Source: a virus
Reading direction: 5' to 3' (one strand)
Virus record (IMG/VR): IMGVR_UViG_3300032296_000754
Coordinates: 1 to 39,898 of that record
Length of the DNA stretch: 39,898 bases
Shown here in pieces: positions 1 through 39,886 of this stretch; the first letter of the stretch is position 1; each line of letters opens with the position of its first letter. The notes beneath the pieces were generated by a model that was not told the DNA's origin, searched no databases, and saw only the letters and a list, made by a program, of their open reading frames with translations. The translations under genes were made by a program, and so were the position numbers.

Positions 1-14
1 CGCTCTTCCGATCT
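1..14. other. Illumina adapter remnant
   Basis: The first 14 bases, CGCTCTTCCGATCT, match the 3' end of the standard TruSeq sequencing adapter. They are not phage DNA. They directly abut the 12-base sequence that is repeated at the other end of the window, which suggests that the adapter was ligated to the physical end of the virion DNA. Confidence 0.95.
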
Positions 15-26
15 GCCGCTATTACC
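15..26. other. Left copy of putative cos end
   Basis: GCCGCTATTACC here is identical to the last 12 bases of the window, and the match does not extend outward because the adapter begins on one side. A filled-in 12-nt 5' overhang, the same length as in lambda, would give exactly this. Bases 27-261 hold no gene that I can support. They are GC-rich and contain a phased CACAGG-type array, short GGGCCAA direct repeats near 211-234 and an inverted repeat at 244-260. Confidence 0.75.
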
Positions 27-59
27 CCCGACGGCCACCCTGCCCAAAGGACCCGCTTT

Positions 60-100
60 CCACAGGACCGCCACAGGGGCCGCTACAGGGCCGCTACAGG
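60..100. repeat. Phased CACAGG/CTACAGG array near cos
   Basis: Four copies of C(C/T)ACAGG end at 66, 77, 89 and 100, so they are spaced 11, 12 and 11 bp, about one helical turn. The last two sit in identical GGCCGCTACAGG contexts. The array starts about 35 bp inside the cos end. Its position and spacing suit a terminase or host-factor binding site of the cosB kind, which is inference. Confidence 0.55.
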
Positions 101-243
101 CACGAAATCAAACGCCCTGCCACCTAGGTAGCGGACGGTATAAGGCGCGGCCTTAAACGGCTTGTACGGGGCTTGTATTGGGAAGGATTGCAAAGGCCGC
201 TTGCCATAGGGCAGGGCCAAGGGCCAAGGGCAAGGGCTGGCAA

Positions 244-260
244 TGCCTATGCGATAGGCA
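244..260. repeat. Perfect inverted repeat, 7-bp arms
   Basis: TGCCTAT and ATAGGCA flank a 3-base centre (GCG). The element lies just beyond the terminator of the left operon on the cos side. It could be a protein-binding site or part of the transcript end; nothing in the sequence decides between these. Confidence 0.5.
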
Positions 261-261
261 C

Positions 262-285
262 AAAAAAACCCGCGCAAGGCGGGCT
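262..285 (-). terminator. Intrinsic terminator of the left operon
   Basis: Read on the minus strand there is a stem GCCCGC/GCGGGT with a short CTTGC loop, followed directly by seven T residues (262-268 on the plus strand are A). It lies 27 bp beyond the stop of the last gene of the left operon (312-461), so it should end early leftward transcripts before they reach cos. Confidence 0.8.
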
Positions 286-311
286 TGATTGTTTCGATTG
301 TATGGTTGCGG

Positions 312-461
312 CTAGTTCAACTCCAGCAACCGCGCTAACATTGGGGTGAGCGGCCTATGTCCAACTTCAACCCGTTGGTAATGTCGGGGGCAGATAGCCA
401 GCAAGGTTGCGGCTTGCTCTTGCGTTAGGTTACGCGCCTTGCGCCAAGCCTTGACGTTCAC
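312..461 (-). CDS. Mini helix-turn-helix protein (XRE-like)
   Basis: This 49-residue protein starts at a GTG that overlaps the stop of the preceding gene (GTGA), so translation is probably coupled. Residues 6-47 read like a single Cro/XRE helix-turn-helix: WRKARNLTQEQAATLLAI, then a second helix with YQRVEVGHRPL, then MLARLLEL. There is almost nothing outside the DNA-binding fold. It is the last gene before the terminator of the left operon. A role as a small repressor or anti-repressor is likely but its target is unknown. No ATG is available in frame, which lowers confidence in the start slightly. Confidence 0.7.
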   Translation of the reverse strand: MNVKAWRKARNLTQEQAATLLAICPRHYQRVEVGHRPLTPMLARLLELN

Positions 462-646
462 AGTTTGACGCCCTTCGCCTTAGCAATGAACAAGCGGCGA
501 TAGGCTTGGGCGTTGCGGTAATCATCGCAACGTATGTTGTCGTGAACCTCACCCCTAGCGTCGCGAATTAGCACTTCATACCAGCCGTTGCACTTGCCGA
601 AAAACACTGTCCAGCCGTTGCGTAAAATGGTTACCTTGTCTGTCAT
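458..646 (-). CDS. Hypothetical protein, 62 aa
   Basis: I do not recognise this small basic protein. It has a good ribosome site (AAGGA nine bases before ATG) and overlaps the next gene by GTGA. Residues 10-36 (NGWTVFFGKCNGWYEVLIRDA) alternate aromatic and hydrophobic residues in a way that suggests a small beta-rich fold, followed by a helix rich in Arg, Ala and Tyr. It belongs to a run of small accessory genes at the end of the left operon. Confidence 0.7.
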   Translation of the reverse strand: MTDKVTILRNGWTVFFGKCNGWYEVLIRDARGEVHDNIRCDDYRNAQAYRRLFIAKAKGVKL

Positions 647-657
647 ATCATCAATCC

Positions 658-867
658 TTATTCAAAAGCCGCCCACGGTTGGGGGCAATGGTTAGGCTTG
701 CCAGTATTAGCCAGCCACTCATTCGTATGTGCAAGGCTTGCGCCCTTGCGATATATCCGCCCCGCCACATACCAGCGCAAACTTAAGCCGTTGCGTGATT
801 GCACATATCGCGCCGAACGCTTGCCCGTGGGCGTTAGGTCAAGGGCCGTCTGTATTGTTAATTGCAC
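658..867 (-). CDS. Hypothetical protein, 69 aa
   Basis: I do not recognise the family. I chose the GTG at 867 because GGGGAG lies eight bases upstream and the start overlaps the preceding stop by only ten bases; an earlier GTG at 897 would add ten residues. The protein is basic, with a central RSARYVQSRNGLSLRWYVAGRIYRK-like segment, and ends in Pro and Trp. It is packed tightly in the run of small accessory genes. Confidence 0.65.
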   Translation of the reverse strand: MQLTIQTALDLTPTGKRSARYVQSRNGLSLRWYVAGRIYRKGASLAHTNEWLANTGKPNHCPQPWAAFE

Positions 868-1142
868 GTTTCGATCTCCCCAACGGTTGCCAGCCACTTA
901 TTCGACGGCCCTATGTAAGCGGTTGCGGCGTTACTGTAGCAAGCGACATAAACGCGCCGCCAGCGCCCTTCCCATTTAATCATGTAAGGTGAGGGGGTCC
1001 GTGGGCCGTAACCCGTGGGCGTATAGGTCAAGCCGCGCCGTTGCCAAGGCAACAGACGTTCCTTTGCCTCAACCTTGACGGTTAAAAACGGGCCTTTTGG
1101 ATAGCCGCAAGCGGCCCCGCCGAAATGTAAATATGTAAACAT
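858..1142 (-). CDS. Hypothetical basic protein, 94 aa
   Basis: Start chosen at ATG 1142, with AGGGGAAG about six bases upstream. The protein is rich in Gly, Pro, Tyr and Arg (for example LLPWQRRGLTYTPTGYGPR). It carries three cysteines without a clear zinc pattern. I do not recognise it. It overlaps the 69-aa gene by ten bases, consistent with one transcript. Confidence 0.65.
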   Translation of the reverse strand: MFTYLHFGGAACGYPKGPFLTVKVEAKERLLPWQRRGLTYTPTGYGPRTPSPYMIKWEGRWRRVYVACYSNAATAYIGPSNKWLATVGEIETCN

Positions 1143-1153
1143 CAATCTTCCCC

Positions 1154-1507
1154 TTAAATTACACTTAAGACGCGATAGCCCGCGTCTTCGATCACATGTT
1201 GCCACCGCTTGCCGTCGCTACTGTTATTGATCGCGCTTGCAATGTTAGCGCCATGTGCGGACTTTTCCGCCCCATTGGAATAAGCCAAGCAAGCGGCCTC
1301 AATAGCGGCGTGGGCCTTGTCGTAACCATAGCCACTGGCGCAACCCGTAACCATATGCGAGCCGAACGCTTGAAAGTAGCAACGCAAGCGGCCTGCCCCG
1401 TCCTTTGGATATTTGATCACAACGCGGGCGACATACTCACCGGACGGTGAAAGGATAGCAAAGGCGCTCATATGTGCGGTTGCCTTGTCGTATTGTTCAT
1501 AAACCAT
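1154..1507 (-). CDS. Conserved phage hypothetical protein, 117 aa
   Basis: ATG 1507 has AGGAG nine bases upstream. The protein has a central TGCASGYGYDKAHAAIEAA segment, a pattern that I associate with small unnamed proteins in many phage early regions. N-terminal residues 13-35 look like beta strands (FAILSPSGEYVARVVIKY). I can give no function. It lies in the accessory run of the left operon. Confidence 0.7.
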   Translation of the reverse strand: MVYEQYDKATAHMSAFAILSPSGEYVARVVIKYPKDGAGRLRCYFQAFGSHMVTGCASGYGYDKAHAAIEAACLAYSNGAEKSAHGANIASAINNSSDGKRWQHVIEDAGYRVLSVI

Positions 1508-1532
1508 TATCGTATACTCCTATTGTTAAACG

Positions 1533-1634
1533 TTAAACTTGCGGCCCAAAAACGGCATAATCCAAAACAAGGGCCGCGAATATGTAAATGCAAAGCAAGG
1601 CAACGTGGCTTGCGGCTAGTTTGTGCGGGTTCAT
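1533..1634 (-). CDS. Small membrane peptide, 33 aa
   Basis: ATG 1634 overlaps the stop of the upstream gene (ATGA), giving a coupled start. The product is about 33 residues, with an uncharged stretch from residue 10 to 26 (VALLCIYIFAALVLDYA) long enough to cross a membrane once. Its size and coupling suggest a real small membrane peptide, but an ORF this short could arise by chance. Confidence 0.5.
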   Translation of the reverse strand: MNPHKLAASHVALLCIYIFAALVLDYAVFGPQV

Positions 1635-1981
1635 GCCATATCCCCCAACGCTTGATTCCAAAGGCTTTCGCAAATGTCATTTGCGGTGAAGTCAGAAATC
1701 AATTCGCTACCGTCTTCAGCGTTGCCCCATACCAGATAGAAGCGGCCAGCGCCGTGCCAACCGACAGTCTTCGAAGGGTCGGCGGCGTATAGTTGCAACG
1801 TATCTTCGCCGGTTGTGCAAAGGGCATCTTCTATTGTCTTCAGCTTGCTTGCGCGCTTCACTGTCATTTCTTCGCCGTCGTCAACGCCGATAGTGTAACC
1901 GGCGGCTAGGGCGGCCTTGATTAAACGCCGCGCTACCTTGCGTTCACCGGCTGTCGCGTATTGCTGGAAAGATGTCGTCAT
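1631..1981 (-). CDS. Conserved phage hypothetical protein, 116 aa
   Basis: ATG 1981 has AAGGAG eight bases upstream. The first 60 residues are helical and basic; the second half contains TIEDALCTTGEDTLQLY and FYLVWGNAEDGSELISDF, a pattern seen in small unnamed phage early proteins. It is the first gene after the repeat-rich non-coding stretch (1982-2285), so it may have its own promoter there. Function unknown. Confidence 0.7.
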   Translation of the reverse strand: MTTSFQQYATAGERKVARRLIKAALAAGYTIGVDDGEEMTVKRASKLKTIEDALCTTGEDTLQLYAADPSKTVGWHGAGRFYLVWGNAEDGSELISDFTANDICESLWNQALGDMA

Positions 1982-2131
1982 TTGTTAAACTCCTTATTCT
2001 CATTGTTAATGAAACCGCCCCTAGCACGGCCAGTGGACGTATAAAAGTAAACAATTGTAAATTCGGATAGCCCAACCGCTGGCCGTGGCCCCCCTATATA
2101 TAAGGTGTAAAATCGCGGGATTGAGCCGATA

Positions 2132-2146
2132 TGTCCGGACCGGACA
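2132..2146. promoter_or_regulatory. Operator-like palindrome
   Basis: TGTCCGGACCGGACA has perfect 7-bp arms around one central base. It lies in the 1982-2285 non-coding stretch, 30 bp from a four-copy direct repeat and upstream (in the minus direction) of the 1631-1981 gene. It resembles a dimer binding site for a regulator; the protein is unknown. Confidence 0.5.
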
Positions 2147-2175
2147 CAAATCGACCGATACGGCGGAACCGGACC

Positions 2176-2280
2176 AAAAATTAGCCCATACGATTCATGA
2201 GCCAAAAAATTAGGGCATACGATTTCTGGGGCAAAAATTAGGGCATACGATTTCTGGGCCAAAATTAGCCCATACGATTT
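2176..2280. repeat. Four iteron-like direct repeats
   Basis: The core ATTAGNNNCATACGATT occurs four times, starting at 2180, 2209, 2237 and 2264, so the spacing is 29, 28 and 27 bp. The variable triplet is CCC, GGG, GGG, CCC. An A-tract precedes each core. The block fills the only sizeable non-coding stretch of the left operon. It could be an origin, a partition-like or a regulator array. It is too short and too regular in phase for a CRISPR array. Confidence 0.75.
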
Positions 2281-2285
2281 ACGGG

Positions 2286-2477
2286 CTAAATTTTCTTTAC
2301 GCCCAGCGCCTTTGCGCATTCACGGGACCAGAAGGCCCAATCGTAAATCAAGCCATCTTCATCACGCCGATCTAGGCCTTCACTTGCGGCTCTATCCAAT
2401 AGGACCATCAGATCGTTTAGTACGCCACAGGCATACAGGTGCTTTGGGCCTTCGTGTTCAATGTTATCGTTAATCAT
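2286..2477 (-). CDS. Hypothetical protein, 63 aa
   Basis: I do not recognise this acidic protein of 63 residues. It starts three bases beyond the stop of the Z-like gene without a clear ribosome site, so translation is probably coupled. Residues 16-50 form a likely helix pair (ACGVLNDLMVLLDRAASEG) with two further cysteines. It ends just before the four-repeat block, whose last copy begins within ten bases of the stop. Confidence 0.6.
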   Translation of the reverse strand: MINDNIEHEGPKHLYACGVLNDLMVLLDRAASEGLDRRDEDGLIYDWAFWSRECAKALGVKKI

Positions 2478-2480
2478 ATG

Positions 2481-3203
2481 TTATAGCTTACTCATATATC
2501 TCATTAAGATACGATCCATATGGCGGGGTAATGAATAAGCCAATTGCTTATCACCAGCGCCCATGTAATCATATTTCTCACGATAATTAGTGTTTCTTAC
2601 AAACACCAGCATAATCTTCACATCCTCGCCCTTGCGCTCTGCAATGGCAAAGGGCTGTCCGCCGCGTTTAATAACAAAGAAACTTACGCTTTTACGGTCC
2701 TTCTGCCCGCTCTTTGGAAATTTGGCGCGATCCTCCTTGGAAATTGCACCAAGAGCATCAAGCATCTGGCTATAACGACCACGAGTAATATTTCCTTTAG
2801 AATCCCGTGGGTAATCTTTACCTTCAACGGTAAAATATCCCGCTGGCAATATACCTTTCGCCTGTAGCGCCTTAGCCGACGCCTTGTTCCCACGAGCGCC
2901 ACCCTTAATGTTTGGTCCAATAATTGCCGCTGGCGTACCGCGTGGCCCAACATTGTTAAAACGAGTCCCGGCTGAGGCAATGTCCCGCCCCTTACCATAA
3001 GGCTGCACCATCCAAAGACCGCGCTTTAAGAAAGCCGAATCCTTGGCCATGCTCATCTTTAATTCTTCAAGCTGCGCGGTGTGAACGTCTTTGACCGTTT
3101 CAGCCACTGCACCAACAACAGCCTTCTCAATTGTTCGAGGCAGTTCAAGCAAGGCCGCGAATTGACGGTCCAGTTCAGCCTTGTCAACTTTGATCGATAA
3201 CAT
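2481..3203 (-). CDS. Virion-type protein, minor tail protein Z-like
   Basis: The 240-residue product starts IKVDKAELDRQFAALLELP and continues with AVAETVKDVHTAQLEELK, then LPAGYFTVEGKDYPRDSKGNI and an SFFVIKRGG segment. This layout resembles phage minor tail/tail-completion proteins of the lambda Z type, which are normally encoded between the head-tail connector and tail terminator genes. Here it lies in the early left operon, and no equivalent is present in the late operon. The start abuts the preceding stop (shared base at 3203). The assignment rests on remembered family patterns, so it is moderate; its strange position is what the sequence shows directly. Confidence 0.55.
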   Translation of the reverse strand: MLSIKVDKAELDRQFAALLELPRTIEKAVVGAVAETVKDVHTAQLEELKMSMAKDSAFLKRGLWMVQPYGKGRDIASAGTRFNNVGPRGTPAAIIGPNIKGGARGNKASAKALQAKGILPAGYFTVEGKDYPRDSKGNITRGRYSQMLDALGAISKEDRAKFPKSGQKDRKSVSFFVIKRGGQPFAIAERKGEDVKIMLVFVRNTNYREKYDYMGAGDKQLAYSLPRHMDRILMRYMSKL

Positions 3204-3388
3204 TATTCTGCGGCCTCAAATTCACCGCACCAATTGAACGGTGATGTCACTGGATTAAAAAACTTTGCTCGACCATCATTGTCCATGTGGGTGAACACGG
3301 GTGGGAAGCGTTTGCAAAAGCCGTGGCTGCCAGTGGGACTGCCCTGATAGAATAAGCACTGCCCACAAACATCATCATTCTTAGTCAT
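3203..3388 (-). CDS. Small cysteine-rich (zinc-binding?) protein, 61 aa
   Basis: ATG 3388 overlaps the upstream stop (ATGA). The protein has CGQC near residue 8, GFCKRFPP around residue 24 and NWCGEFE near the C-terminus. The four cysteines in a C-x2-C ... C ... C pattern and the final WCGEF motif are typical of a widespread class of small phage proteins that probably bind one metal ion. Function unknown. Confidence 0.7.
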   Translation of the reverse strand: MTKNDDVCGQCLFYQGSPTGSHGFCKRFPPVFTHMDNDGRAKFFNPVTSPFNWCGEFEAAE

Positions 3389-3540
3389 ATCATTTCTTTC
3401 CACTGCCAGTTCGCCCAGTGCCGCATTTCGTCATTCGACCATTGATGCTTCTGCCACTTTTTTAACAGTTCTGCTTTGTTTATGCTACCATGTTTGTGTC
3501 GCATCAGATCAGTTAAAAAATCTGTGGCAGTTAGCTTCAT
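3385..3540 (-). CDS. Hypothetical protein, 51 aa
   Basis: ATG 3540 overlaps the stop of the DnaA-like gene (ATGA), and the gene ends with the same kind of overlap. The product is basic and strikingly rich in Trp, His and Lys (ELLKKWQKHQWSNDEMRHW). It may be a small nucleic-acid-binding protein. I do not recognise the family. Confidence 0.65.
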   Translation of the reverse strand: MKLTATDFLTDLMRHKHGSINKAELLKKWQKHQWSNDEMRHWANWQWKEMI

Positions 3541-3833
3541 TGCTTTTGCGCCATTATCTTTAACGAGTGAACAATGGTGCTGTGGTCGCGGTTCATAATA
3601 CGGCCAATTTCGGTGGTGGAATATCCCTTTTCGCGCAGCATTACAGCGCACTTGCGGCGGATTTCGACCAACTTTCTGCAACGATTTTTGCCTATTATGT
3701 CTTCAGCGGTATAGTCATATTCTTTAGCAATATCATTCATAGCGATCATATTGGCTTGCCTAGGCGTCATGCCACGGCTGTCAAAAAGCACTACTTGATC
3801 TTCTTCATCCCACATAAAATCATCATCAAACAT
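3537..3833 (-). CDS. DnaA domain IV-like DNA-binding protein, 98 aa
   Basis: Residues 28-95 match the C-terminal DNA-binding domain of bacterial DnaA: IAKEYDYTAEDIIGKNRCRKLVEIR, then a helix-turn-helix ending in the signature GRIMNRDHSTIVHSLK at 77-92. DnaA uses this RDHST loop to contact DnaA boxes. The ATPase domain is absent and the first 25 residues are acidic. It lies in the replication segment beside MazG-like and P-like genes, with AAGGAAG before ATG 3833. It may mark the phage origin or compete with host DnaA; which of these is inference. Confidence 0.8.
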   Translation of the reverse strand: MFDDDFMWDEEDQVVLFDSRGMTPRQANMIAMNDIAKEYDYTAEDIIGKNRCRKLVEIRRKCAVMLREKGYSTTEIGRIMNRDHSTIVHSLKIMAQKQ

Positions 3834-4128
3834 CGTTTTCTTCCTTTACAAAAATACCGTCTACCATGCGGCCCTTACGGTCTTTGATCTGATGCCAAGC
3901 GTGAACGACGCATTCCTCAATCTCCAAATCCTTTTGCGCAGCCATAATGGTAAGCACCACAAAGGCATCTCCGATGCTGTCCATGAATTGCTCATCCTTG
4001 CCCTTGGCGATGGCTTCGGCCAGTTCACCTATCTCTTCAATCAGCTTTACGAATTGGGCTTGCACAGTGCTGCCAGCAATCAGGTTGCGTTCTTCTGCCC
4101 ATTGGCGAATTGAGTTTCCGTAAATCAT
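3826..4128 (-). CDS. MazG-like nucleotide pyrophosphohydrolase
   Basis: The 100-residue protein carries the MazG-type metal-binding pattern: EEIGELAEA at 31-39 (E-E-x2-E) and DSIGDAF at 50-56 (D-x3-D). This all-alpha family hydrolyses nucleoside triphosphates, including abnormal or regulatory nucleotides, to monophosphates and pyrophosphate. Phage versions are thought to protect nucleotide pools or lower stress nucleotides. The start shares bases with the P-like gene stop (TAATG), so the two are co-translated. Length fits the short single-domain form. Confidence 0.8.
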   Translation of the reverse strand: MIYGNSIRQWAEERNLIAGSTVQAQFVKLIEEIGELAEAIAKGKDEQFMDSIGDAFVVLTIMAAQKDLEIEECVVHAWHQIKDRKGRMVDGIFVKEENDV

Positions 4129-4670
4129 TAGTTCATTTCCTCTTTGGTTTTGAGTGATTGTATTAATTCAGCATTCAGTGCGGCCAACTCCTCAGCCGTC
4201 ACATATTCCTGTGGTGGCTTGTAATCTCGGCGGTGTATCATCAAAAGGTATTCCGCCCTGGCTAACTTGCGTCTGCGGTCCCTGCCTTCTTCCTGTAAAA
4301 CCGAATCTATCTCCGCAGGGGTCGGCATAAACTTGCAAGTCCGAAGCAGTTTGAGAAACGCACTGCGTAGATCGACCACTGGGTAAATGCGAAGGGTCAT
4401 CCAGTAAAGTTCCAGCCGCTCTGCCTCTTCGTCCTGACTGCGCTTTTGGCTGGCAGTGGCAAGTGCCAGTTTCGCAATCATTACCTCGACCTGTTCGCGC
4501 TCAGGCATTGGTGGCCGTGGGGCATCCACATACTGTTGCAAGATTTCAGCAGACTTAGGACCAATCGTCGGCAAATCGCTCCCCATCAGCAGATCGTTTA
4601 GCTTGGCTGGCAAGGACGGCTCTGACCATTGGGTTAGTTGGCTCTGCTGCGTTTTGGCTATTTCCTGCAC
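4128..4670 (-). CDS. Lambda P-like replication protein (helicase loader role)
   Basis: The 180-residue product follows the O-like gene and overlaps its 3' end by 116 bases in another frame. GTG 4670 has AAAGG nine bases upstream. The N-terminal part (LTQWSEPSLPAKLNDLLMG) is flexible; residues 90-125 include LRIYPVVDLRSAFLKLLRTCKFMPTPAEI, a pattern typical of phage P-like replication proteins, followed by basic helices. By position and pattern it should bring the host replicative helicase to the origin. No ATPase motif is visible, so it is P-like rather than DnaC-like. Confidence 0.65.
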   Translation of the reverse strand: MQEIAKTQQSQLTQWSEPSLPAKLNDLLMGSDLPTIGPKSAEILQQYVDAPRPPMPEREQVEVMIAKLALATASQKRSQDEEAERLELYWMTLRIYPVVDLRSAFLKLLRTCKFMPTPAEIDSVLQEEGRDRRRKLARAEYLLMIHRRDYKPPQEYVTAEELAALNAELIQSLKTKEEMN

Positions 4671-5250
4671 TCGTATTACCTTTCGGTTCGTAAATATCCA
4701 GCCAGCCGTTTATCGTTGATCGGTCTAGTAGGTCTTCAATGTCATGGCCTTTGGATCGTATGGCATCCAGTTTATTGATAGCCCTTGCGGTTGCCCTGTC
4801 AGTTAATGGTCGCTTGCGTTTCTTACGCATCTCCACCCATCCGTTCCAAGCATCCATTGGCAGCCAATCTGGAAGGCCTATTATATCATTGGTGGTTAAT
4901 TGATGTGTAATTGATGTATTGGGTGCATCTGATGCACGGGTCCCATGCACTTCATGCACGGGGGGGGTGTCTTTAATGCACGGGTGCATATGATGCACGG
5001 GTATCTGTATCCAATACTTATTGCCCTTACCGATAACTTCTTCACGGCGAATAAATTGCATTTCCTCAAGCGACCTAATCGCCAGTTGGACTGCCCTTTT
5101 TTTCAATGATGATTTTTTTGCGACGCGCTCAATAGAAGGCCAACACAAGCCTTCGTCATTTGCCCAATCAGCCAAAGCCAGCAAAACAAGTTTTTGCGTC
5201 GATGATAGGTCTTCCCTATCCCATACTGCTGTCATGATTTTAATGCTCAT
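4555..5250 (-). CDS. Lambda O-like replication initiator
   Basis: Residues 1-80 form a winged helix-turn-helix of the HTH_36 kind (LSSTQKLVLLALADWANDEG, then SIERVAKKSSLKKRAVQLAIR). A His-rich hinge follows, and then a C-terminal domain with WNGWVEMRKKRKRPLT and DLLDRSTINGWLDIYEP, typical of phage O-like or DnaD-like replication proteins. The hinge is encoded by the iteron block at 4921-5005, as in lambda O and its origin. The gene starts from ATG 5250, coupled to a 16-residue leader. Its probable job is to bind the iterons and recruit the P-like protein. Confidence 0.8.
   Translation of the reverse strand: MSIKIMTAVWDREDLSSTQKLVLLALADWANDEGLCWPSIERVAKKSSLKKRAVQLAIRSLEEMQFIRREEVIGKGNKYWIQIPVHHMHPCIKDTPPVHEVHGTRASDAPNTSITHQLTTNDIIGLPDWLPMDAWNGWVEMRKKRKRPLTDRATARAINKLDAIRSKGHDIEDLLDRSTINGWLDIYEPKGNTSAGNSQNAAEPTNPMVRAVLASQAKRSADGERFADDWS
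4921..5005. repeat. Iterons inside the O-like gene: candidate replication origin
   Basis: ATGCACGGG occurs at 4932, 4954, 4976 and 4993, spaced 22, 22 and 17 bp. Two copies are extended into inverted repeats: GTGCATC-T-GATGCAC at 4924-4938 and GTGCAT-ATG-ATGCAC at 4985-4999. The block encodes the hinge of the O-like protein. Lambda carries its origin iterons at this same place in O, so origin function is a well-founded inference. Confidence 0.75.
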
Positions 5251-5297
5251 AACACAAAGCCTTGCGCTATGGTTCTATGGCGTATATAATTCATCAT
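5247..5297 (-). CDS. 16-residue leader peptide coupled to the O-like gene
   Basis: ATG 5297 (followed by a second ATG) has AGGAG eight bases upstream, the best ribosome site in this stretch. The peptide MMNYIRHRTIAQGFVL ends with a TGA that overlaps the ATG of the O-like gene (ATGA). The O-like gene itself has only a weak AAGG. The arrangement suggests that ribosomes reach the replication gene by way of this leader. Confidence 0.55.
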   Translation of the reverse strand: MMNYIRHRTIAQGFVL

Positions 5298-5322
5298 ATG
5301 CGGTGCTCCTCTATAGCATTGC

Positions 5323-5358
5323 GGCCAGCGAAAATTGTCTCCCCTTTTTTCGCTGGCC
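5323..5358. promoter_or_regulatory. Long perfect hairpin upstream of the replication genes
   Basis: GGCCAGCGAAAA at 5323-5334 pairs perfectly with TTTTCGCTGGCC at 5347-5358 across a 12-base loop. There is no U-tract on either strand after the stem, so it is not a standard terminator. On the minus strand it lies between the DUF1064 gene stop and the leader peptide, so it would sit in the mRNA just before the replication genes. It may be an RNA processing site, a mRNA stabiliser or an attenuator. Confidence 0.65.
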
Positions 5359-5390
5359 CCCTCCTACATCAATACCAGCGTTTTATAAAG

Positions 5391-5744
5391 CTACTTTGTT
5401 TGCCGAAAGTCGATTGTCGGAAACAGGGCTTTGAACAATGCCTTGCGTAACGTGAAGTCTGGGGTAATCATGCCCTTTACATCTTCGACGCAATCCTGGC
5501 CGTTTTGTGTGTAGGAAAAGTCTGGCTTATATCCAACGCGCCGCCCGTTATCGTGCTTCATCTGACTGCCATTTACGACAAACCAGAATTGCGGGTGGAT
5601 CACTAAGTCAGCAATCACACCAGCAGCCCATAAAACGTGCAGTTCATCACACCTTGCAGCTTCGCGCTTGCTGTCGTGCTTGTGGCACTGGGTGCAATAC
5701 GCTTTCTTGGCATTGAACTTTGACCGACGATTAAACAGCGCCAT
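5391..5744 (-). CDS. DUF1064 family nuclease
   Basis: The 117-residue protein shows the DUF1064 layout: FNAKKA near the N-terminus, HDSKREAARCDEL at about 28-40, VGYKPDFSYTQNGQDCVEDVKG at about 72-93 and then LRKALFKALFP. The acidic D ... E-D-V-K-G pattern is that of a PD-(D/E)xK-like nuclease fold. Phage members are thought to cut DNA during recombination or packaging. ATG 5744 is preferred to an upstream TTG; it overlaps the regulator gene by 14 bases. Confidence 0.8.
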   Translation of the reverse strand: MALFNRRSKFNAKKAYCTQCHKHDSKREAARCDELHVLWAAGVIADLVIHPQFWFVVNGSQMKHDNGRRVGYKPDFSYTQNGQDCVEDVKGMITPDFTLRKALFKALFPTIDFRQTK

Positions 5745-5943
5745 TGGTCTTGGCCGCAATCAATGCTTCCAATGCCTGTTGAACAGCAAGGTATGGCTCC
5801 AACATTGGTGTGGATCGTTGGCACTTCCAGTTGCTTAACGTAACCCGACTAATGCCAGCGGCAGCGGCAAGTTTGCCAGCCGAAATATTATGTTCCGCAG
5901 CGCGTCCATATATACGCATTATGGCTTGGTAGCTTAACGTCAT
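5731..5943 (-). CDS. Cro-like helix-turn-helix regulator, 70 aa
   Basis: ATG 5943 has AAAGGA seven bases upstream. Residues 21-43 (SAGKLAAAAGISRVTLSNWK) are a clear Cro/XRE helix-turn-helix. It is the first gene of the left operon and is divergent from the ERF gene, facing the palindrome TTTACATATGTAAA at 5989-6002. This matches the position of a lambdoid Cro or repressor. No second, larger CI-type repressor with a protease or oligomerisation domain is found, and no integrase, so a lytic control switch is at least as likely as lysogeny. Confidence 0.8.
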   Translation of the reverse strand: MTLSYQAIMRIYGRAAEHNISAGKLAAAAGISRVTLSNWKCQRSTPMLEPYLAVQQALEALIAAKTNGAV

Positions 5944-5973
5944 TTTATGTCCTTTTTTGCTTAATGCACAACG

Positions 5974-6017
5974 CATATAAAAAAATGCTTTACATATGTA
6001 AATGGGTCTTGCATAAA
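5974..6017. promoter_or_regulatory. Divergent early promoters sharing a palindromic operator
   Basis: The perfect palindrome TTTACATATGTAAA at 5989-6002 contains a -35 box (TTTACA) on each strand. Rightward, TTTACA at 5989 is 17 bp from CATAAA at 6012-6017. Leftward, TTTACA (6002-5997) is 17 bp from TATATG (5979-5974). A dimeric repressor bound to the palindrome would block both promoters at once. The Cro-like protein encoded next door is the obvious candidate. Confidence 0.7.
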
Positions 6018-6063
6018 AAAAGCAAGACATCGAGTTATTGCGTTTATTATAAGGAGACAATCA

Positions 6064-6636
6064 GTGAGCGACGACAAAATCTGCGCTGCGTATGTTGCAG
6101 CATTTGCAGAGTTGGAGGCGGCAACAAAAACCGCCAACAACCCACATTTCAAATCTAAATACGCTGATCTCCCGACAGTGATTGATGCTATCAAGCCGCA
6201 CCTGTCAAAGCATGGCCTTGCATTTATGCAGATGCCCAAGCCAAGCGAAGGCGGCATATCAATCGAAACTGTCCTGATACACAGTAGCGGCGACAAGTTG
6301 TCGATGGGTGTATTGTTTGTGCCAGCTAATAAGCACGATGCACATGGTTATGGATCGGCTTTAACTTATGCGCGTCGATATGCACTGCAAACTTGCTTTG
6401 GTTTGCCAACAGAAGATGACGATGGCAACGCAGCGGTCAAATCGCAGCAGCCAGCAGCAGCAAAGCCTATCACGCAGGAACAGTTTGCTGTGTTGCAAGA
6501 CCTTATCGACCGCACAGGCACTGACGTAGCTGTCATGGCAGCGCATTACAAAGTGCCAGCAATAGCAATGCTTCCATCCACTGCATTTGAAACAGCAAAG
6601 TCGGCATTGGAAAGGAAGCTGCAAAATGCGAGTTGA
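6064..6636 (+). CDS. erf: ERF family single-strand annealing protein
   Basis: The 190-residue protein has the ERF pattern: AYVAAFAELEAATKTANNPHF, KYADLPTVIDAIKPHLSKHGL, then HAHGYGSALTYARRYAL-like residues at about 100-115. ERF proteins pair complementary single strands in phage recombination and help circularise or concatenate the genome. GTG 6064 has AAGGAGA seven to eight bases upstream. It is the first gene of the right operon and is followed by the exonuclease that would supply its single-stranded substrate. Confidence 0.85.
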   Translation: MSDDKICAAYVAAFAELEAATKTANNPHFKSKYADLPTVIDAIKPHLSKHGLAFMQMPKPSEGGISIETVLIHSSGDKLSMGVLFVPANKHDAHGYGSALTYARRYALQTCFGLPTEDDDGNAAVKSQQPAAAKPITQEQFAVLQDLIDRTGTDVAVMAAHYKVPAIAMLPSTAFETAKSALERKLQNAS

Positions 6637-7282
6637 TGTCGAACAGCGCAGTGAAGATTGGTATACTGCGCGATGCGGTTCTCTGGGGGCGTCACAGGTT
6701 GCTGACGCCCTATCCCGCACCAAAAGCGGTTACAGCGCCACCAGAACAAACTTGCGTGTCAAGCTGGCTCTGGAGCGGCTCACAGGCAAGCAAGCGGCTG
6801 GGTTCACCAGTGCAGCAATGCAGCATGGCATAGACACCGAAGCTGAAGCCAAAATAGCCTATTCGTTTGAACAGAACGTAACGGTTACCGAAACAGGGCT
6901 TGTCAGACATTCAAGCATCCCGTGGACGCACTGTTCGCCTGATGGTCTTGTTGGTGATGATGGGCTTGTAGAAATCAAGTGCCGCCAACCAGCGGGTCAC
7001 CTTGAAACGCTAACGTCAGGCGAAATACCATCGCAGTATGTTACGCAAATCAACTGGCAACTTGCTTGTATGCCAGAACGCCAATGGGTTGATTACGTTT
7101 GTTACAACCCAGACTTTCCTGAAGAACTGAAACTTTTCATCAAAAGGCACTATCGAAATGACGAACAAATCTTGGAATTGGAAAAATCTGTTTGCGAATT
7201 TCTTTCAGAAGTCGAAGCCGATCTCGAAACCATTAACGGCATTAGAAGAAGGGTACAGACTGGCGAAACTATCATCCGATAA
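6626..7282 (+). CDS. YqaJ-like viral recombination exonuclease
   Basis: Start ATG 6626 overlaps the ERF stop by eleven bases. The 218-residue protein begins with RSEDWYTARCGSLGASQVAD (a YqaJ hallmark) and has HGIDTEAEA at 68-76, CSPDGLV at 103-109 and LVEIKCR at 114-120, giving the D ... E-x-K metal site at D106, E116 and K118, then YVTQINWQLA at 138-147. Family members resemble lambda exonuclease and degrade dsDNA ends 5' to 3'. With ERF it forms a two-component recombinase. Confidence 0.9.
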   Translation: MRVDVEQRSEDWYTARCGSLGASQVADALSRTKSGYSATRTNLRVKLALERLTGKQAAGFTSAAMQHGIDTEAEAKIAYSFEQNVTVTETGLVRHSSIPWTHCSPDGLVGDDGLVEIKCRQPAGHLETLTSGEIPSQYVTQINWQLACMPERQWVDYVCYNPDFPEELKLFIKRHYRNDEQILELEKSVCEFLSEVEADLETINGIRRRVQTGETIIR

Positions 7283-7538
7283 ACAAGGCCTGGAATGGAA
7301 TGCGTTGGCTTACCAAGCCTATGTAGAACACGCCCGTCGGCATAGGTTCTTTACTACCGAAGATGTGCGCAGAGAGGCAAAGAACGTCCCTGCGGCCACA
7401 AACAACAGCGCCTGGGGGCATATAGCAAAGACGGCTAGTAACAATGGTATTATGATGGAATTTGAAACCATGCGGTCAAAAAGCCCATCTACGCACGGAC
7501 GGCATATTATCATCTGGAAATCGATGTTGCTGCCATGA
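7158..7538 (+). CDS. Hypothetical phage protein, up to 126 aa
   Basis: The well-behaved part begins near residue 29 (LEEGYRLAKLSSDKQG) and continues with FTTEDVRREA, NNSAWGHIAKTA and SPSTHGRHIIIW. This resembles a recurrent small phage protein next to recombination genes that I cannot name. The first 28 residues overlap the exonuclease C-terminus in another frame. ATG 7158 is the only ordinary start before the conserved part, with a weak AAAAGG site, so the true start is uncertain. Confidence 0.6.
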   Translation: MTNKSWNWKNLFANFFQKSKPISKPLTALEEGYRLAKLSSDKQGLEWNALAYQAYVEHARRHRFFTTEDVRREAKNVPAATNNSAWGHIAKTASNNGIMMEFETMRSKSPSTHGRHIIIWKSMLLP

Positions 7539-7876
7539 TGTTACCGCGCAAGATACCAAAAGAGGCAAAGCGTCAGAGCAGATGGAAGTCGCCAGCGCAT
7601 TGCAATTTTGTCAGGGGCCATGCCTGTTCCATATGCGATAGCATGGCAGGGATCGAAGTTGCCCATATCCGCTATGGCAGCGGTGCTGGCATGGGGCAAA
7701 AGCCGCACGATTGGTTTACTGTAAGCCTGTGCAAACAATGCCATACGAACCAGCACAGCGTCGGTGAGCGCACGTTCTGGGCAACCTATAACATCAACCC
7801 GTTTGCACTGGCTGAAGCGTTTGCAAAGGCCAGCCCAAAGGCAGCGGAGATCGCCGCCAAGAAAAAGGAGATATAG
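7535..7876 (+). CDS. HNH-like nuclease, DUF968-type, 113 aa
   Basis: The protein has CSIC at 31-34, AHIRYG at about 43-48, GMGQKPHDWFTVSLC and CKQCHTNQHSVGERTFW. The paired cysteines plus A-H-I-R and C-H ... Q-H positions match the zinc-bound HNH nucleases of the DUF968/recombination class found in phage ninR-like regions. It starts at ATGATG overlapping the previous stop (ATGA) and lies among recombination genes. A role in trimming recombination intermediates is inferred. Confidence 0.75.
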   Translation: MMLPRKIPKEAKRQSRWKSPAHCNFVRGHACSICDSMAGIEVAHIRYGSGAGMGQKPHDWFTVSLCKQCHTNQHSVGERTFWATYNINPFALAEAFAKASPKAAEIAAKKKEI

Positions 7877-7878
7877 TT

Positions 7879-8523
7879 ATGCAAACTAATGTTATGACCG
7901 AGAAAAAACAACGCAAGCCAATGTCTGCTGAACATAAAGCCAAAATTGCGGCTGCTCATCGCGCAAAGTTTGCTGATCCAGAATATGGAGCAATGCACAA
8001 AGCAAGGATGGTTGCGGGAATTAAAAAGTGGCATTCTAATCCTAAAAATGCGGCAAAATTTGCACAGCGTGTAAGTGAGCGGATGAAAAAGCGCCACGCC
8101 GAAGATGATTGGAAAGCAGAAGGTGGAAGGTCTGGAATTTCAAGCCGAGCTATCAAGAAAACACTGGAAGCGCATAAGGAAATGTTTAGAAAATTAGCCA
8201 AAGACCGATATGACGCTGGCCTTGGTATAAACTCCGATGCAGCAAAATCTGCCAAGGTAGCTGCTGGCAAATGGATAATGAAAGCGGCCCTTGCTGCCTT
8301 GCATTCGGAAACAAATTACAATGAAGTCTACAGAGATACACATCTTAGGTTACGCCGCGAAATGCCATACGACGGCCCTAGTGATCATGCTGATTATTAC
8401 GAATACATAAAAAAGCTAGGAACTGCGACAGTCAATAGCCCCGAATGTAGGAAACTGTCAGATGAGTTCATGCGGGTTGCAATACCTAGATTTGCAAAAA
8501 AATGGCATGAGCAAAAAATATGA
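7879..8523 (+). CDS. NUMOD3-like DNA-binding protein lacking a nuclease domain
   Basis: The first 80 residues hold NUMOD3-type segments (PMSAEHKAKIAAAHRAKF, then MVAGIKKWHSNPKNAAK and VSERMKKRHAED) as found in the DNA-binding tails of phage homing endonucleases. I see no GIY-YIG, HNH or LAGLIDADG motif in the rest, which is helical and basic. AAGGAG lies eight bases before ATG 7879. It could be the remnant of a homing endonuclease or a domesticated DNA-binding protein. It sits between the HNH and NinB genes with ATGA coupling to NinB. Confidence 0.6.
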   Translation: MQTNVMTEKKQRKPMSAEHKAKIAAAHRAKFADPEYGAMHKARMVAGIKKWHSNPKNAAKFAQRVSERMKKRHAEDDWKAEGGRSGISSRAIKKTLEAHKEMFRKLAKDRYDAGLGINSDAAKSAKVAAGKWIMKAALAALHSETNYNEVYRDTHLRLRREMPYDGPSDHADYYEYIKKLGTATVNSPECRKLSDEFMRVAIPRFAKKWHEQKI

Positions 8524-8900
8524 CGCAGACCGTCTGGCTTCGCGGCGAACATCAAAGGCGATTGGCTCACCAGTTAATCGACAAAGCGCCACAGGATGCA
8601 GTCGTTAAGATCAGCGCAGCCAAGCGCAGTGACGATCAAAATGCAAAAATGTGGGCCATGCTGTCCGACATCAGTCGGGCTGCACCAGAGGATCGGCATC
8701 ACATACCAGAAGTCTGGAAGTGCATATTTATGGCAGCATTGGGGCATGAAGTTATGTTCACAATGGGCTTAAACAATCAGCCTTTCCCCATAGGCTTTAA
8801 GACATCGAAGCTAAACAAGACCCAGATGTCGGACCTGATTGAATTTATATATGCGTATGGGGCGCAAAATAATGTGAAATGGAGTGAGAAATATGAGTGA
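8520..8900 (+). CDS. ninB: NinB-like recombination protein
   Basis: The 126-residue product has the NinB order: a short basic N-terminus (RGEHQRRLAHQLID), KISAAKRSDDQNAKMWAMLSDIS, then EVWKCIFMAALGHEVMF and LIEFIYAYGAQNNVKW. NinB (lambda Orf) is a recombination mediator that binds single-stranded DNA and SSB and helps load annealing proteins. ATG 8520 overlaps the upstream stop (ATGA). The SSB gene lies two genes downstream. Confidence 0.85.
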   Translation: MTQTVWLRGEHQRRLAHQLIDKAPQDAVVKISAAKRSDDQNAKMWAMLSDISRAAPEDRHHIPEVWKCIFMAALGHEVMFTMGLNNQPFPIGFKTSKLNKTQMSDLIEFIYAYGAQNNVKWSEKYE

Positions 8901-9126
8901 ACCACACAGCGAACAGCTTCGTCTTTTGATTGAGCGTATCGAACGGCTGAACGAAGATAAAAAAGGCATCCAGGATGACATCCGCGATGTTTATAATGAA
9001 GCTAAGGCGCATGGTTACGACACCAAAATTGTTCGCGCAGTGATCCGCCTTCGTGCAATGGAAGCAAATGACCGCGCAGAATATCAGGCAGTACTAGACA
9101 CATACATGACCGCTCTTGGTCTATAA
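8893..9126 (+). CDS. DUF2312/GapR-like nucleoid protein
   Basis: ATG 8893 has GGAG eight bases upstream and overlaps the NinB stop. The 77-residue protein has the family signature: EQLRLLIERIERLNEDKKGIQDDIRDVYNEAKAHGYD, then VIRLRAMEANDRAEYQAVLDTYMTALG. In Caulobacter, GapR binds overtwisted AT-rich DNA and supports replication forks. The family is characteristic of Alphaproteobacteria, which is the main host clue here. In the phage it may relieve or mark supercoiling during replication or recombination. Confidence 0.85.
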   Translation: MSEPHSEQLRLLIERIERLNEDKKGIQDDIRDVYNEAKAHGYDTKIVRAVIRLRAMEANDRAEYQAVLDTYMTALGL

Positions 9127-9138
9127 AAGGAAACAGCA

Positions 9139-9519
9139 ATGCAGAATATCACAATATCAGGAAACGTCGGCAAGGATGCTGAATTGCGCACAGTGCGAGA
9201 TACCCAAGTCCTCAGCTTCAACGTCGGCGTCAAGAACGGATTTGGCAGAGATGCTGGCAGCGTTTGGTATCGTTGCAGCTTGTGGGGCAAGGCAGCGGAA
9301 GCGTTTTCTGGCAGCATCAAGAAAGGCACTAAGGTCTTTATCACAGGCGAACTGACGCACGACGAATATGAAGGCAAGCCGCAGTTCAATGTGCGCGTTG
9401 GCAGCATCGATACAGGCCCACGCCCACAAGGCCAATCTGATGATGATTCACAAGTCCAAGCTGATGGCGGTTCGCATACCACTTGGGACAATGACCTTGA
9501 GGATGATTGTCCATTTTAG
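9139..9519 (+). CDS. ssb: Single-stranded DNA-binding protein
   Basis: This 126-residue protein has a classic OB-fold SSB domain: ISGNVGKDAELR, VLSFNVGVKN, WYRCSLWGKAAEAF and VFITGELTHDEYEGKPQFNVRV. A short acidic tail ends in DDCPF, close to the usual DDDIPF partner-docking tip. AAGGA lies eight bases before ATG 9139. It should coat single strands and recruit replication and recombination partners. Confidence 0.92.
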   Translation: MQNITISGNVGKDAELRTVRDTQVLSFNVGVKNGFGRDAGSVWYRCSLWGKAAEAFSGSIKKGTKVFITGELTHDEYEGKPQFNVRVGSIDTGPRPQGQSDDDSQVQADGGSHTTWDNDLEDDCPF

Positions 9520-9533
9520 GCCGGAGATATAAA

Positions 9534-9767
9534 ATGGCAGTAGGATCAAGACTTAACTTAGATCACCGACGCAAAGCACCTCCAATGAGTAGCCGCCAAG
9601 AATGGCTGGCACGAGAATATCAGCAAGCAATAGCAGAATCCAGCAAGGCACTTTTGAAGGCGCAACTGACAACAGGTCAACACGCATTAGACAAGGATCG
9701 CTTTGTGCAGACAGCTATTAATCATGGTTGGATATTGCAAATCCCAGATCGTTTACTGCTTCAATGA
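9534..9767 (+). CDS. Hypothetical protein, 77 aa
   Basis: ATG 9534 has GGAG seven bases upstream, 14 bases after the SSB stop. The product is basic at the N-terminus and helical in the middle (EWLAREYQQAIAESSKALLKAQ), ending WILQIPDRLLLQ. I do not recognise the family. It is the last gene before a second promoter-like site. Confidence 0.65.
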   Translation: MAVGSRLNLDHRRKAPPMSSRQEWLAREYQQAIAESSKALLKAQLTTGQHALDKDRFVQTAINHGWILQIPDRLLLQ

Positions 9768-9776
9768 AAAAAGGTG

Positions 9777-9805
9777 TTTACATATATAAAAAGCAGCTTT
9801 ATATG
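9777..9805 (+). promoter_or_regulatory. Second copy of the early promoter/operator pattern
   Basis: TTTACA at 9777-9782 and TATATG at 9800-9805 are 17 bp apart, exactly the boxes and spacing of the leftward early promoter at 5974-6002. The sequence continues TTTACATATATAAA, differing from the early palindrome at one position. It would drive the small genes at 9848-10238 and may be bound by the same regulator. Confidence 0.6.
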
Positions 9806-9847
9806 AATGGTTAGGGGCAGCCGCCCCGCCATTTAAGGATTCTAACC

Positions 9848-9982
9848 ATGATTAAACCAGCACAAGCAGCACCATTGGGCAAAAAACACCGTGTCTCATC
9901 AGATTCCGCGTGGCCGCTTCGTGGCGTAGACGGCCTTACATTCGCAGAGCGTAAGGCTAAGGAACAGGAGCATGGCAAATGA
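9848..9982 (+). CDS. Hypothetical protein, 44 aa
   Basis: ATG 9848 has AAGGA about eight bases upstream and the gene ends with an ATGA overlap into the next. The product is basic, with AWPLRGVDGLTFAERKAKEQE in the second half. It is the first gene after the promoter-like site at 9777. Function unknown. Confidence 0.65.
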   Translation: MIKPAQAAPLGKKHRVSSDSAWPLRGVDGLTFAERKAKEQEHGK

Positions 9983-10164
9983 TCGACGACGATGACATCG
10001 TATTTGACCGATACACGGAACGTGCCGAAGCTACCCTAGCTTATCGCCTAATGGAGTATCTTGAGTTTCTTGGCGTGATAACTGACGAACATGTTTGTTA
10101 TCTGCGTTACCCACCAATTGAACTGATTGAGGATGCTGAAGCTGCGTTAAAGGACAGCAAATGA
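9979..10164 (+). CDS. Hypothetical acidic protein, 61 aa
   Basis: The gene overlaps both neighbours by ATGA. Its product is acidic at the N-terminus (MIDDDDIVFDRYTERAEATLAY) and helical throughout. I do not recognise the family. Being small, acidic and in its own promoter unit, it could be an inhibitor of a host protein, but this is a guess from composition only. Confidence 0.65.
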   Translation: MIDDDDIVFDRYTERAEATLAYRLMEYLEFLGVITDEHVCYLRYPPIELIEDAEAALKDSK

Positions 10165-10238
10165 CCCTGCGCCAATTCCTGTACGATAATTTCGGCTGGG
10201 ATATTTACGACTGGGCCGATGATGAGATTAGATTTTAA
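10161..10238 (+). CDS. Very small acidic protein, 25 aa
   Basis: ATG 10161 overlaps the previous stop (ATGA). The peptide MTLRQFLYDNFGWDIYDWAD is aromatic and acidic and ends DEIRF. The stop lies three bases before the terminator stem. It is short, so chance is possible, but the coupled start and its exact fit between stop and terminator favour a real gene. Confidence 0.5.
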   Translation: MTLRQFLYDNFGWDIYDWADDEIRF

Positions 10239-10240
10239 AG

Positions 10241-10275
10241 AAACGGGCCACTCCACAACGAGCGGCCCGTTTTTT
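10241..10275. terminator. Bidirectional terminator between early and late operons
   Basis: AAACGGGCC at 10241-10249 pairs with GGCCCGTTT at 10264-10272 (9 bp, 14-base loop with an inner CTC/GAG pair). Six T residues run from 10270 for the rightward transcript. On the minus strand the stem is followed by TTTCTTTAAAA. It lies between the convergent stops at 10238 and 10278. Confidence 0.9.
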
Positions 10276-10277
10276 AT

Positions 10278-10484
10278 TTAGCCGTTGATGATTTGCAACA
10301 GGCCAGCAGCGGCGGCAGCAACAAACGCCAGCGCGGCGGCAACCGTTGTTTTCCAACCCAGCTTCTTTTCAGATTCATCGACCATAGGCAGAAGTTTGCC
10401 CGTGGCCTTCTTGATGATGGCTTTTTCGGCTTCTTTCTTCAAAGCCTTGGTAGCTTCTTTCTTCAATGTGCTTTTAATATCCAT
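10278..10484 (-). CDS. Small membrane protein, holin candidate, 68 aa
   Basis: ATG 10484 has AGGAG seven bases upstream. Residues 1-45 are a Lys/Glu/Ala-rich amphipathic helix (STLKKEATKALKKEAEKA). Residues 45-66 are a single hydrophobic segment (TTVAAALAFVAAAAAGLLQI). It lies directly after the endolysin gene at the end of the late operon. Position and size suit a holin or a holin regulator, though the soluble part is long for a class III holin. Confidence 0.65.
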   Translation of the reverse strand: MDIKSTLKKEATKALKKEAEKAIIKKATGKLLPMVDESEKKLGWKTTVAAALAFVAAAAAGLLQIING

Positions 10485-10494
10485 GTTTATTCTC

Positions 10495-11109
10495 CTATAA
10501 CCAAGTTGCGTATTTCTTGGTCTTTTGTTTGCGGTCATCTAGGCCGTGGGTTCCGCCATTGATGCGCTTAGTAAGTGCAAGGATAGCAGCGTCGTTGATG
10601 CCCTGATCGCAGATGCTCCACAACTTGTTTGCGTCAAAGAACCACAAGGCACTTTCAAAGCCCAGTTCAGTAGCCACAAGGTCTGGATTGTCCAAAATCT
10701 CCTGTTCGCGACCAATGTATTTACCGAATGCGCGGTAGTTGTTCTTGCCCGTCAATTGTAAGGGGCCGCGTCCTTTGTACAGCCACCCTTCGCCTGACGC
10801 TTCGTCACCATTACCCATGCGGTTGGCATAGACGCGGTTAGCAATCTTCTGCGGCTGGCGCTCATAGGCACGGGCCATAGCATCCGTGGGAAAATACTTC
10901 CCAAAGATGCTGCGCAGCCCCTTTGCGCTATAGTTCAGGTTTTCGCTGAACGCTTTGAAATTGCCCGATTCATGCGCCGTTTGAGCAAAGAAATGCGCAG
11001 CCCGATTAGGTGATAGTTTATAAAAAGCCGCAGCTTTCTTACATGTACCTGGACCGAACGCACCATCTGCATGACACCCACATTTGCTTTGAAGATTAAT
11101 TAAGCTCAT
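10495..11109 (-). CDS. GH19 family endolysin (chitinase-like muramidase)
   Basis: ATG 11109 overlaps the preceding stop (ATGA), giving 204 residues. The GH19 signatures are present: HFFAQTAHESGNF at 39-51 with catalytic E47, FSENLNYSA at 54-62 with the second acid E56, and GRGPLQLTGKNNY at 113-125. Phage GH19 enzymes cleave the peptidoglycan glycan backbone. The first 30 residues (LQSKCGCHADGAFGPGTCKKA) resemble part of a small wall-binding repeat. No signal peptide is visible, so release should need a holin. Confidence 0.9.
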   Translation of the reverse strand: MSLINLQSKCGCHADGAFGPGTCKKAAAFYKLSPNRAAHFFAQTAHESGNFKAFSENLNYSAKGLRSIFGKYFPTDAMARAYERQPQKIANRVYANRMGNGDEASGEGWLYKGRGPLQLTGKNNYRAFGKYIGREQEILDNPDLVATELGFESALWFFDANKLWSICDQGINDAAILALTKRINGGTHGLDDRKQKTKKYATWL

Positions 11110-11615
11110 TTGCCAGCACTCCGCCAATCAGGGAAATCAAGTTCATCGACTACGCCGTCACCGTTGGCATCGTAACGCAGATCACCGCGATACTTTTCCC
11201 AAGGCTCCATTTCGTCATCGTCATCATCGATTTCTGGTTCATCAATAAACACAGTCGCGGCTGGATCATCATAACGTGGCGCAGGAGCAACCATGTCAGG
11301 TGTAAGCGGCAGCGGGTCTGGTTGTGGCGCTACAGGGGCCATAGGCTCTGGTTCTGGGTCATCACGGTCTTCTGGTGGTGGTGGGGCCAATTCGCCCTTC
11401 ATGCCCATCAGGGTAGCGTAGGAGCCAGCCACAGCGCCGACAACTGAAGTCATGACGTATGACAGCAAACCGAATACATCTTTATTGTCAATAATCTCAT
11501 TCGATACGAATAGGCCGACAATCATTGCGCAAGTGATGGCGATAATGACAAATGCCATTGTTTTTGCCGCCAGCAGCAACGCTTTGATCCGTGCCTCTAA
11601 TAATTTATCATCCAT
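11106..11615 (-). CDS. Two-helix membrane protein with an EF-hand loop
   Basis: Residues 17-38 and about 48-67 are hydrophobic membrane segments. A Pro/Glu/Asp-rich linker follows (78-135), and near the C-terminus DANGDGVVDELD is a textbook 12-residue calcium-binding EF-hand/dockerin loop. AAAGGA precedes ATG 11615. The gene lies between the coiled-coil membrane protein and the endolysin. The two-helix N-terminus could be a holin or antiholin; the calcium-binding tail is unusual for one. The tail's location relative to the membrane is not decided by the sequence. Confidence 0.65.
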   Translation of the reverse strand: MDDKLLEARIKALLLAAKTMAFVIIAITCAMIVGLFVSNEIIDNKDVFGLLSYVMTSVVGAVAGSYATLMGMKGELAPPPPEDRDDPEPEPMAPVAPQPDPLPLTPDMVAPAPRYDDPAATVFIDEPEIDDDDDEMEPWEKYRGDLRYDANGDGVVDELDFPDWRSAGK

Positions 11616-11618
11616 ATA

Positions 11619-12149
11619 TTAGTCCTTTCCTGCCAGCGGATTTGCCAGCGTCTTTTGAATGCGCTCATTAGTTTGCGCCTCCAACTCTTTGATGCGACGT
11701 TGCTGTTCCTGATCTTGCTGACGCAACTGATCGATCACTGCACGTTGCATTGCCATGTTTTGAGCATCGCTGCTCCTGACGCTACTGGAGACAGCATCAA
11801 CGGTCTGGCGCGTTCCACTGACGCTGCTGCTGATGCTGCCCGTCATGTAATTTAAGGCTTCGCTGTTGATCTTGGTAAGCCGCTCAACGCTTGTGACGCG
11901 CTCATCAAGAACCGAAATGCGGCCTTCAATGCCAGACAAGTCTGGCGGAACATATGCCGCCGTCACTTCCTGCATGGTCAGGAATTGCTGATACACTTGG
12001 AATCCAGCCCACAAGCCACCAAGGATTGTGGAGAATGCAGCAAAGATGATTGCGATCTTGCCGCTGCTCAGGCCACCAATGTTGAAGCTGAAACCGCTTT
12101 CATCAAAGGATACCTTTGGCTCTTCTTTTTCATCATTTGTATTGCTCAT
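11619..12149 (-). CDS. Membrane-anchored coiled-coil protein, 176 aa
   Basis: A hydrophilic N-terminus of about 28 residues precedes one membrane segment (residues 30-52, GKIAIIFAAFSTILGGLWAG). After this come two heptad-rich regions, including RISVLDERVTSVERLTKI and AVIDQLRQQDQEQQRRIKELE. AGGAG lies about seven bases before ATG 12149. The layout resembles an inner-membrane spanin (one anchor and a periplasmic coiled coil), and its position in the lysis region agrees, but I cannot identify a matching outer-membrane lipoprotein. Confidence 0.6.
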   Translation of the reverse strand: MSNTNDEKEEPKVSFDESGFSFNIGGLSSGKIAIIFAAFSTILGGLWAGFQVYQQFLTMQEVTAAYVPPDLSGIEGRISVLDERVTSVERLTKINSEALNYMTGSISSSVSGTRQTVDAVSSSVRSSDAQNMAMQRAVIDQLRQQDQEQQRRIKELEAQTNERIQKTLANPLAGKD

Positions 12150-14400: not shown

Positions 14401-14410
14401 GAGGTATGTC

Positions 14411-16524: not shown

Positions 16525-16553
16525 GAGAAATGATACTCAAAAGATTGACCATG

Positions 16554-17851: not shown

Positions 17852-17855
17852 CGCC

Positions 17856-18386: not shown

Positions 18387-18394
18387 TAAAACTC

Positions 18395-19202: not shown

Positions 19203-19203
<1 letters not shown>
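18553..19203 (-). CDS. Fibre-associated beta-rich (lectin-like) protein, 216 aa
   Basis: ATG 19203 shares bases with the stop of the collagen-like gene (TAATG). The product has jelly-roll-like strands: YEYLFQTS-type segments, SDYFITMHLWHEPSLNRTRARV, LNDWTLSGTQIG and a final NFQTLRVTKL. This resembles concanavalin-like domains in phage fibres, but I cannot name the family. It lies directly after the large fibre gene. Confidence 0.6.
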
Positions 19204-22394
<3,191 letters not shown>

Positions 22395-39819: not shown

Positions 39820-39842
39820 TTTGCTACTTTGCCATTTTGTGC

Positions 39843-39871: not shown

Positions 39872-39886
39872 TGCTTTTTCTTCGGG

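Follow-up and report, generated by a model that had tools for sequence, protein, structure and literature searches.

Filled-in 12-base cohesive ends of lambda type as the probable origin of a terminal repeat in an uncultured phage genome

In the scheme laid out for lambda and its relatives, TerS bound to cosB anchors TerL, TerL nicks cosN at points 12 bp apart, and cosQ serves for termination (as given in the parts of PMC9026076 and PMC4856287 used here). Among the lambda-like phages, cosQ and the left half of cosN are conserved and bases 7 to 12 of cosN are variable, according to the part of PMC4669245 used here. The fate of such ends in a sequencing library has also been described: 5' overhangs are filled in and 3' overhangs trimmed back during end repair, and only in phages with 5' cohesive ends do the two contig ends come to carry the same cohesive sequence (PMC5557969, in the portion drawn on here).

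The window, by which we mean the whole stretch of DNA analysed, is an IMG/VR virus contig of 39,898 bases (record G000), classed as linear in IMG/VR. The elements at its two ends are as follows.

1 to 14, no strand assigned: leftover adapter CGCTCTTCCGATCT, non-phage DNA, which we take to be the end of the Illumina read-1 adapter.
15 to 26, minus strand: cosN 12-mer GCCGCTATTACC, putative filled-in copy at the cosQ-side end (the right end of lambda), placed by the terminal match and by homologous contig ends.
48 to 54, minus strand: cosQ-like GGGTCCT, 28 bases from the cut, placed by comparison of the window with lambda and by the relatives.
39820 to 39886, minus strand: flank separating cosN from the first gene, the expected place of a cosB; assigned by position only and partly common to L015 and L027.
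39887 to 39898, minus strand: cosN 12-mer, putative filled-in copy at the terminase-side end (the left end of lambda), placed by the terminal match and by homologous contig starts.

An earlier note on this DNA held that the 12 bases behind the adapter recur exactly at the far end, and this is confirmed: the letters at 15-26 and at 39887-39898 are identical, and when suffix-prefix lengths of 8 to 39 were compared, a match was found at 12 only. No third copy of GCCGCTATTACC is present on either strand of the window, the remaining matches all having two mismatches. The window thus has at its two ends an identical, short repeat of cohesive-end length. The adapter 14-mer has one exact occurrence in the window, at its edge. 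Removal of the adapter leaves 39,884 bases of phage DNA, and removal of the second 12-mer copy leaves a unit of 39,872 bp. The earlier note also took the adapter at the repeat boundary as a sign that many reads stopped there, but a few adapter-carrying reads may be all that an assembler needs to run on into adapter.

We read the two 12-mers as the filled-in halves of a single cos site of lambda type with 12-nucleotide 5' ends, and give this reading a probability of about 0.95. The events would have been as follows. A terminase of the lambda gpA type, whose action here is taken from homology, would nick the concatemeric phage DNA in cosN at points 12 bases apart, giving virion DNA with complementary 12-nucleotide 5' overhangs. 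End repair during library preparation would fill both overhangs and so place the 12-mer at either end of the contig; the ligated adapter would have escaped trimming at one end. By analogy with lambda, packaging would begin at window base 39898, the end that carries the terminase genes, and would stop at window base 15, the end that bears cosQ.

The source record, an assembly of metagenome type, still carries uncut adapter, as might be expected if the ends were an accident of assembly, in which a circular or permuted genome was broken arbitrarily, with a chance 12-base overlap and a read tail bearing adapter. The 12-mer also lies at a joined junction in 22 relatives, which the same explanation would accommodate. 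Against it stand the probability of an exact 12-base terminal match by chance, about 6e-8, and the places at which the contigs of relatives stop. The relatives are 79 IMG/VR loci matched by TerL, and 50 of their contigs have an edge within 2 kb of terL on its upstream side. Eighteen of these 50 start exactly at the homologous 12-mer (GGTRAT), where 0.024 would be expected by chance; 3 start one extra base ahead of the 12-mer, and 29 start elsewhere and are fragments. The extra bases are T, T and C, of which T, like A, is a leftover expected from adapter joining and C is not. A collection scan of the terminase (downstream) side covered 28 contigs, with 11 exact starts at the 12-mer, 13 joined junctions and 4 unrelated sequences. 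The corresponding scan of the cosQ (upstream) side covered 38 contigs, with 7 ending exactly after the 12-mer, 14 joined junctions and 17 unrelated sequences. With stops at the homologous base on both sides, an assembly accident is very improbable.

Individual contigs bear on the same point. The 38,579-bp contig of L021 has GGTGATTAGGAG at both its start and its end; that of L019 ends exactly after GGTGATTAGGAG and starts 3 bases inside the 12-mer; that of L037 ends with its 12-mer followed by A. The 12-mers of relatives include GGTGATTAGGAG, GGTGATTAGGAC and others, and that of L017 is GGTAATAGCGGC, the same as the window's own. The claim of the earlier note that the 12-mer is a filled-in 12-nucleotide 5' cohesive end is well supported by these stops, by the 12-bp terminal repeat of the one relative, by the cosQ-like element at a fixed distance and by the gpA-type terminase. 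The homologous contig ends likewise bear out its claims of a complete genome and of a packaging cut placed at a single base, and the record can be taken as such. More generally, comparing homologous contig stops in public assemblies yields the exact ends of uncultured phages. In kind, the cohesive end itself is ordinary and of a well known type.

Two further contigs fit the reading less well, with ends at base 13, just behind the 12-mer. Bases 1-16 of L046 are leftover adapter that ends in the same letters as the window's and meets the phage DNA at base 13, the base at which L059 starts. These ends may represent an unfilled recessed strand, or trimming.

Several other searches led no further. 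The window's exact joined junction has 0 matches in viral_contigs. A scan with the window's 12-mer plus flank gave 72 contigs, in which the sequence is terminal only in L211 (the contig of L017) and the cosQ-like motif is present in none. Seven contigs scanned for other adapter-joined ends (a family 12-mer followed by adapter) were all chance matches. Megablast of window positions 1-20000 against the phage collection found no match, and a search of genome_contigs for a host or prophage relative via TerL gave 6 pattern matches, none of them a relative. The inverted flanks of the window (CGGG, 12-mer, CCCG) were considered as a supporting symmetry and dropped, for relatives show GCG, 12-mer, CCC and other flanks.

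GGGTCCT, which we take to be the cosQ of lambda, lies upstream of cosN at 28 bases in the window and at 30 in lambda (right end). In 22 relatives the distance from GGGTCCT or AGGTTCT to cosN is exactly 28; since an internal site was counted only with such a motif at most 32 bases away, the result is the exact spacing and not the presence of the motif. The window and these relatives thus have a cosQ-like element at a fixed distance ahead of cosN, and by analogy it would act in termination as cosQ does. A text search of the literature found no paper with both GGGTCCT and cosQ. Within the 12-mer, bases 1-6 hold 1.84 bits per position and bases 7-12 hold 0.97 (11 distinct 12-mers, 44 sites), a contrast that is inflated because bases 1-6 were used in part in finding the sites. 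The right half does drift despite this inflation, and a conserved left and variable right half is the lambda-type pattern. Behind cosN, most relatives have a conserved block, from which the flank of the window differs, and R repeats are not established; a cosB role for this flank would rest on its position.

Synthesis of a very short direct terminal repeat, as in T7, would also place a repeat at both ends, and would likewise allow a joined form with a single copy. Here the repeat has 12 bases. The PhageTerm authors draw the line at 20 bases, and the smallest direct terminal repeat known to them has 131 (PMC5557969, in the portion drawn on here). The terminase and the cosQ-like element are, moreover, of lambda type. 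Of the explanations weighed, we hold this one the least probable.

Leftwards from base 39898, on the minus strand, the window encodes an HNH protein, TerS, TerL, a portal of the lambda family and a capsid protein that includes a protease domain. Tail genes come next, and further left are endolysin, replication O-like and Erf-like genes. Those closest to the end are the following.

36472 to 38328, minus strand: large terminase (TerL) of the lambda gpA type, with ATPase and nuclease domains (PF05876, PF20454).
38325 to 38777, minus strand: small terminase (TerS), matching its family profile without the first 80 or so positions.
38767 to 39819, minus strand: endonuclease VII-like HNH gene, situated between cos and terS; most relatives lack it, and the ends do not require it.

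A gpA-type TerL with its TerS therefore adjoins the end of the window, as in lambda. The nearest TerL that a search of the phage collection gave is no more than 62% identical (Roseobacter phage CRP-821, PV211011, the closest named), so that a cos site has been obtained for a clade at that distance. Two other features of the gene map may be recorded. Positions 19203-22394 (minus strand) encode a 1063-residue tail-region protein with collagen-like repeats (PF01391, 3.7e-49), and positions 30902-31860 (minus strand) hold two adjacent genes that both match tail terminator families (phrog_4204), perhaps a duplication.

HK97-like phages have an HNH gene next to cos and terS, as the window does, and a cos site with 3' overhangs, perhaps cut with the help of the neighbouring HNH protein, has to be weighed on that account. 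End repair removes 3' overhangs, so the 12-mer would not then be common to both ends (PMC5557969, in the portion drawn on here). Ends unshared after end repair are seen neither in the window nor in the contig of L021. It is because the ends are shared after end repair that we infer 5' rather than 3' overhangs. The gpA-type TerL has a nuclease domain of its own, and since relatives without any HNH gene at this place have the same ends, the HNH gene is unneeded for making them. A 3' overhang thus appears highly unlikely.

The small terminase departs from the lambda pattern. Its profile match begins at position 80 of 199, which leaves no N-terminal winged helix in the match. The TerS proteins of the window, L004 (182-616) and L056 (975-1412) match phrog_57 from position 76-86 only, and that of CRP-821 matches it from position 12. 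By comparison with lambda TerS, the missing part would correspond to the winged-helix DNA-binding domain, for which the part of PMC4856287 used here serves as the reference. The truncated match bears on TerS and not on the ends.

More unusual than the cos ends is the DNA between them and the terminase core. Window positions 38700-39886 form a block made up of the flank behind cosN, the HNH gene and the start of TerS to about codon 24. The TerL of the window and that of L004 are near-identical (100%, rounded), and their DNA is 93.6% matching from reverse-strand base 1191 (about codon 24 of terS) onward, with no match upstream. The block of the window instead matches carriers of the same HNH family, namely L015, L027, L035, L114, L116 and L117, of which the last three entered the comparison via the HNH protein itself. 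By tblastn, 9 of the 50 cos-to-terL intervals examined carry this HNH family. In 7 of the 9 carriers TerS begins in the form RPEVSxxTYEEARTRK, and in L056 and L063 it has a looser start; no such start occurs in the 41 non-carriers, nearly all of which have TGG ahead of YD.ARTRK. When carriage is plotted on the TerL tree (44 rows, L056 and L063 counted as carriers), the label changes 7 times, against a mean of 7.6 for shuffled labels. Because these changes resemble those of shuffled labels, carriage of the block does not track TerL: it is present in distant relatives and missing from ones whose TerL is near-identical.

The gap between cos and terS also holds other nucleases, with HNH_3 genes in L051 and L058 and another endonuclease VII-like protein in L012 and L017. 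Genes of one or the other kind in L012, L017, L051, L058 and L060 mark the gap as a hot spot for them.

Recombination anchored in the conserved cos and terS sequences can explain the block pattern. That the cos flank and the TerS start vary together is no proof of a binding pair, for two sequences so close to each other could simply be linked. A tentative proposal, which we regard as rather doubtful, is that an exchangeable packaging-specificity cassette, consisting of a cosB-like flank, the HNH gene and the first 24 or so codons of terS, moves as a unit among phages with near-identical TerL; that the HNH enzyme drives the exchange by homing or partners that type of TerS; and that the TerS of this clade has lost the winged-helix part. 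Block exchange beside cos, together with a lambda-type TerS that is without the usual DNA-binding part, raises a testable question, namely what recognises cos here.

Among known systems, roseophage vB_DshS-R4C has a 5' cohesive end region upstream of terS, obtained from reads by PhageTerm, as the part of PMC6836515 used here describes it; it differs in its reported 14 bp, and the likeness is one of description. CRP-821 has AGGTTCT 29 bases before GGTAATCCTGAC, 99 bases upstream of terS, much as in the window, but was deposited as circular, with no ends reported, and its TerS has the full profile. Compared with lambda (NC_001416), the window has a different 12-mer sequence and a spacing of 28 instead of 30, together with no recognised R sites, a TerS without the N-terminal part and an HNH gene between cos and terS. 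With lambda and the lambda-like phages 21, N15 and Gifsy-1 it shares 12-base ends that adjoin terS and a gpA-type TerL, GGGTCCT about 30 bases ahead of the cut and, as in the window's relatives, a 12-mer whose left half is conserved and whose right half varies.
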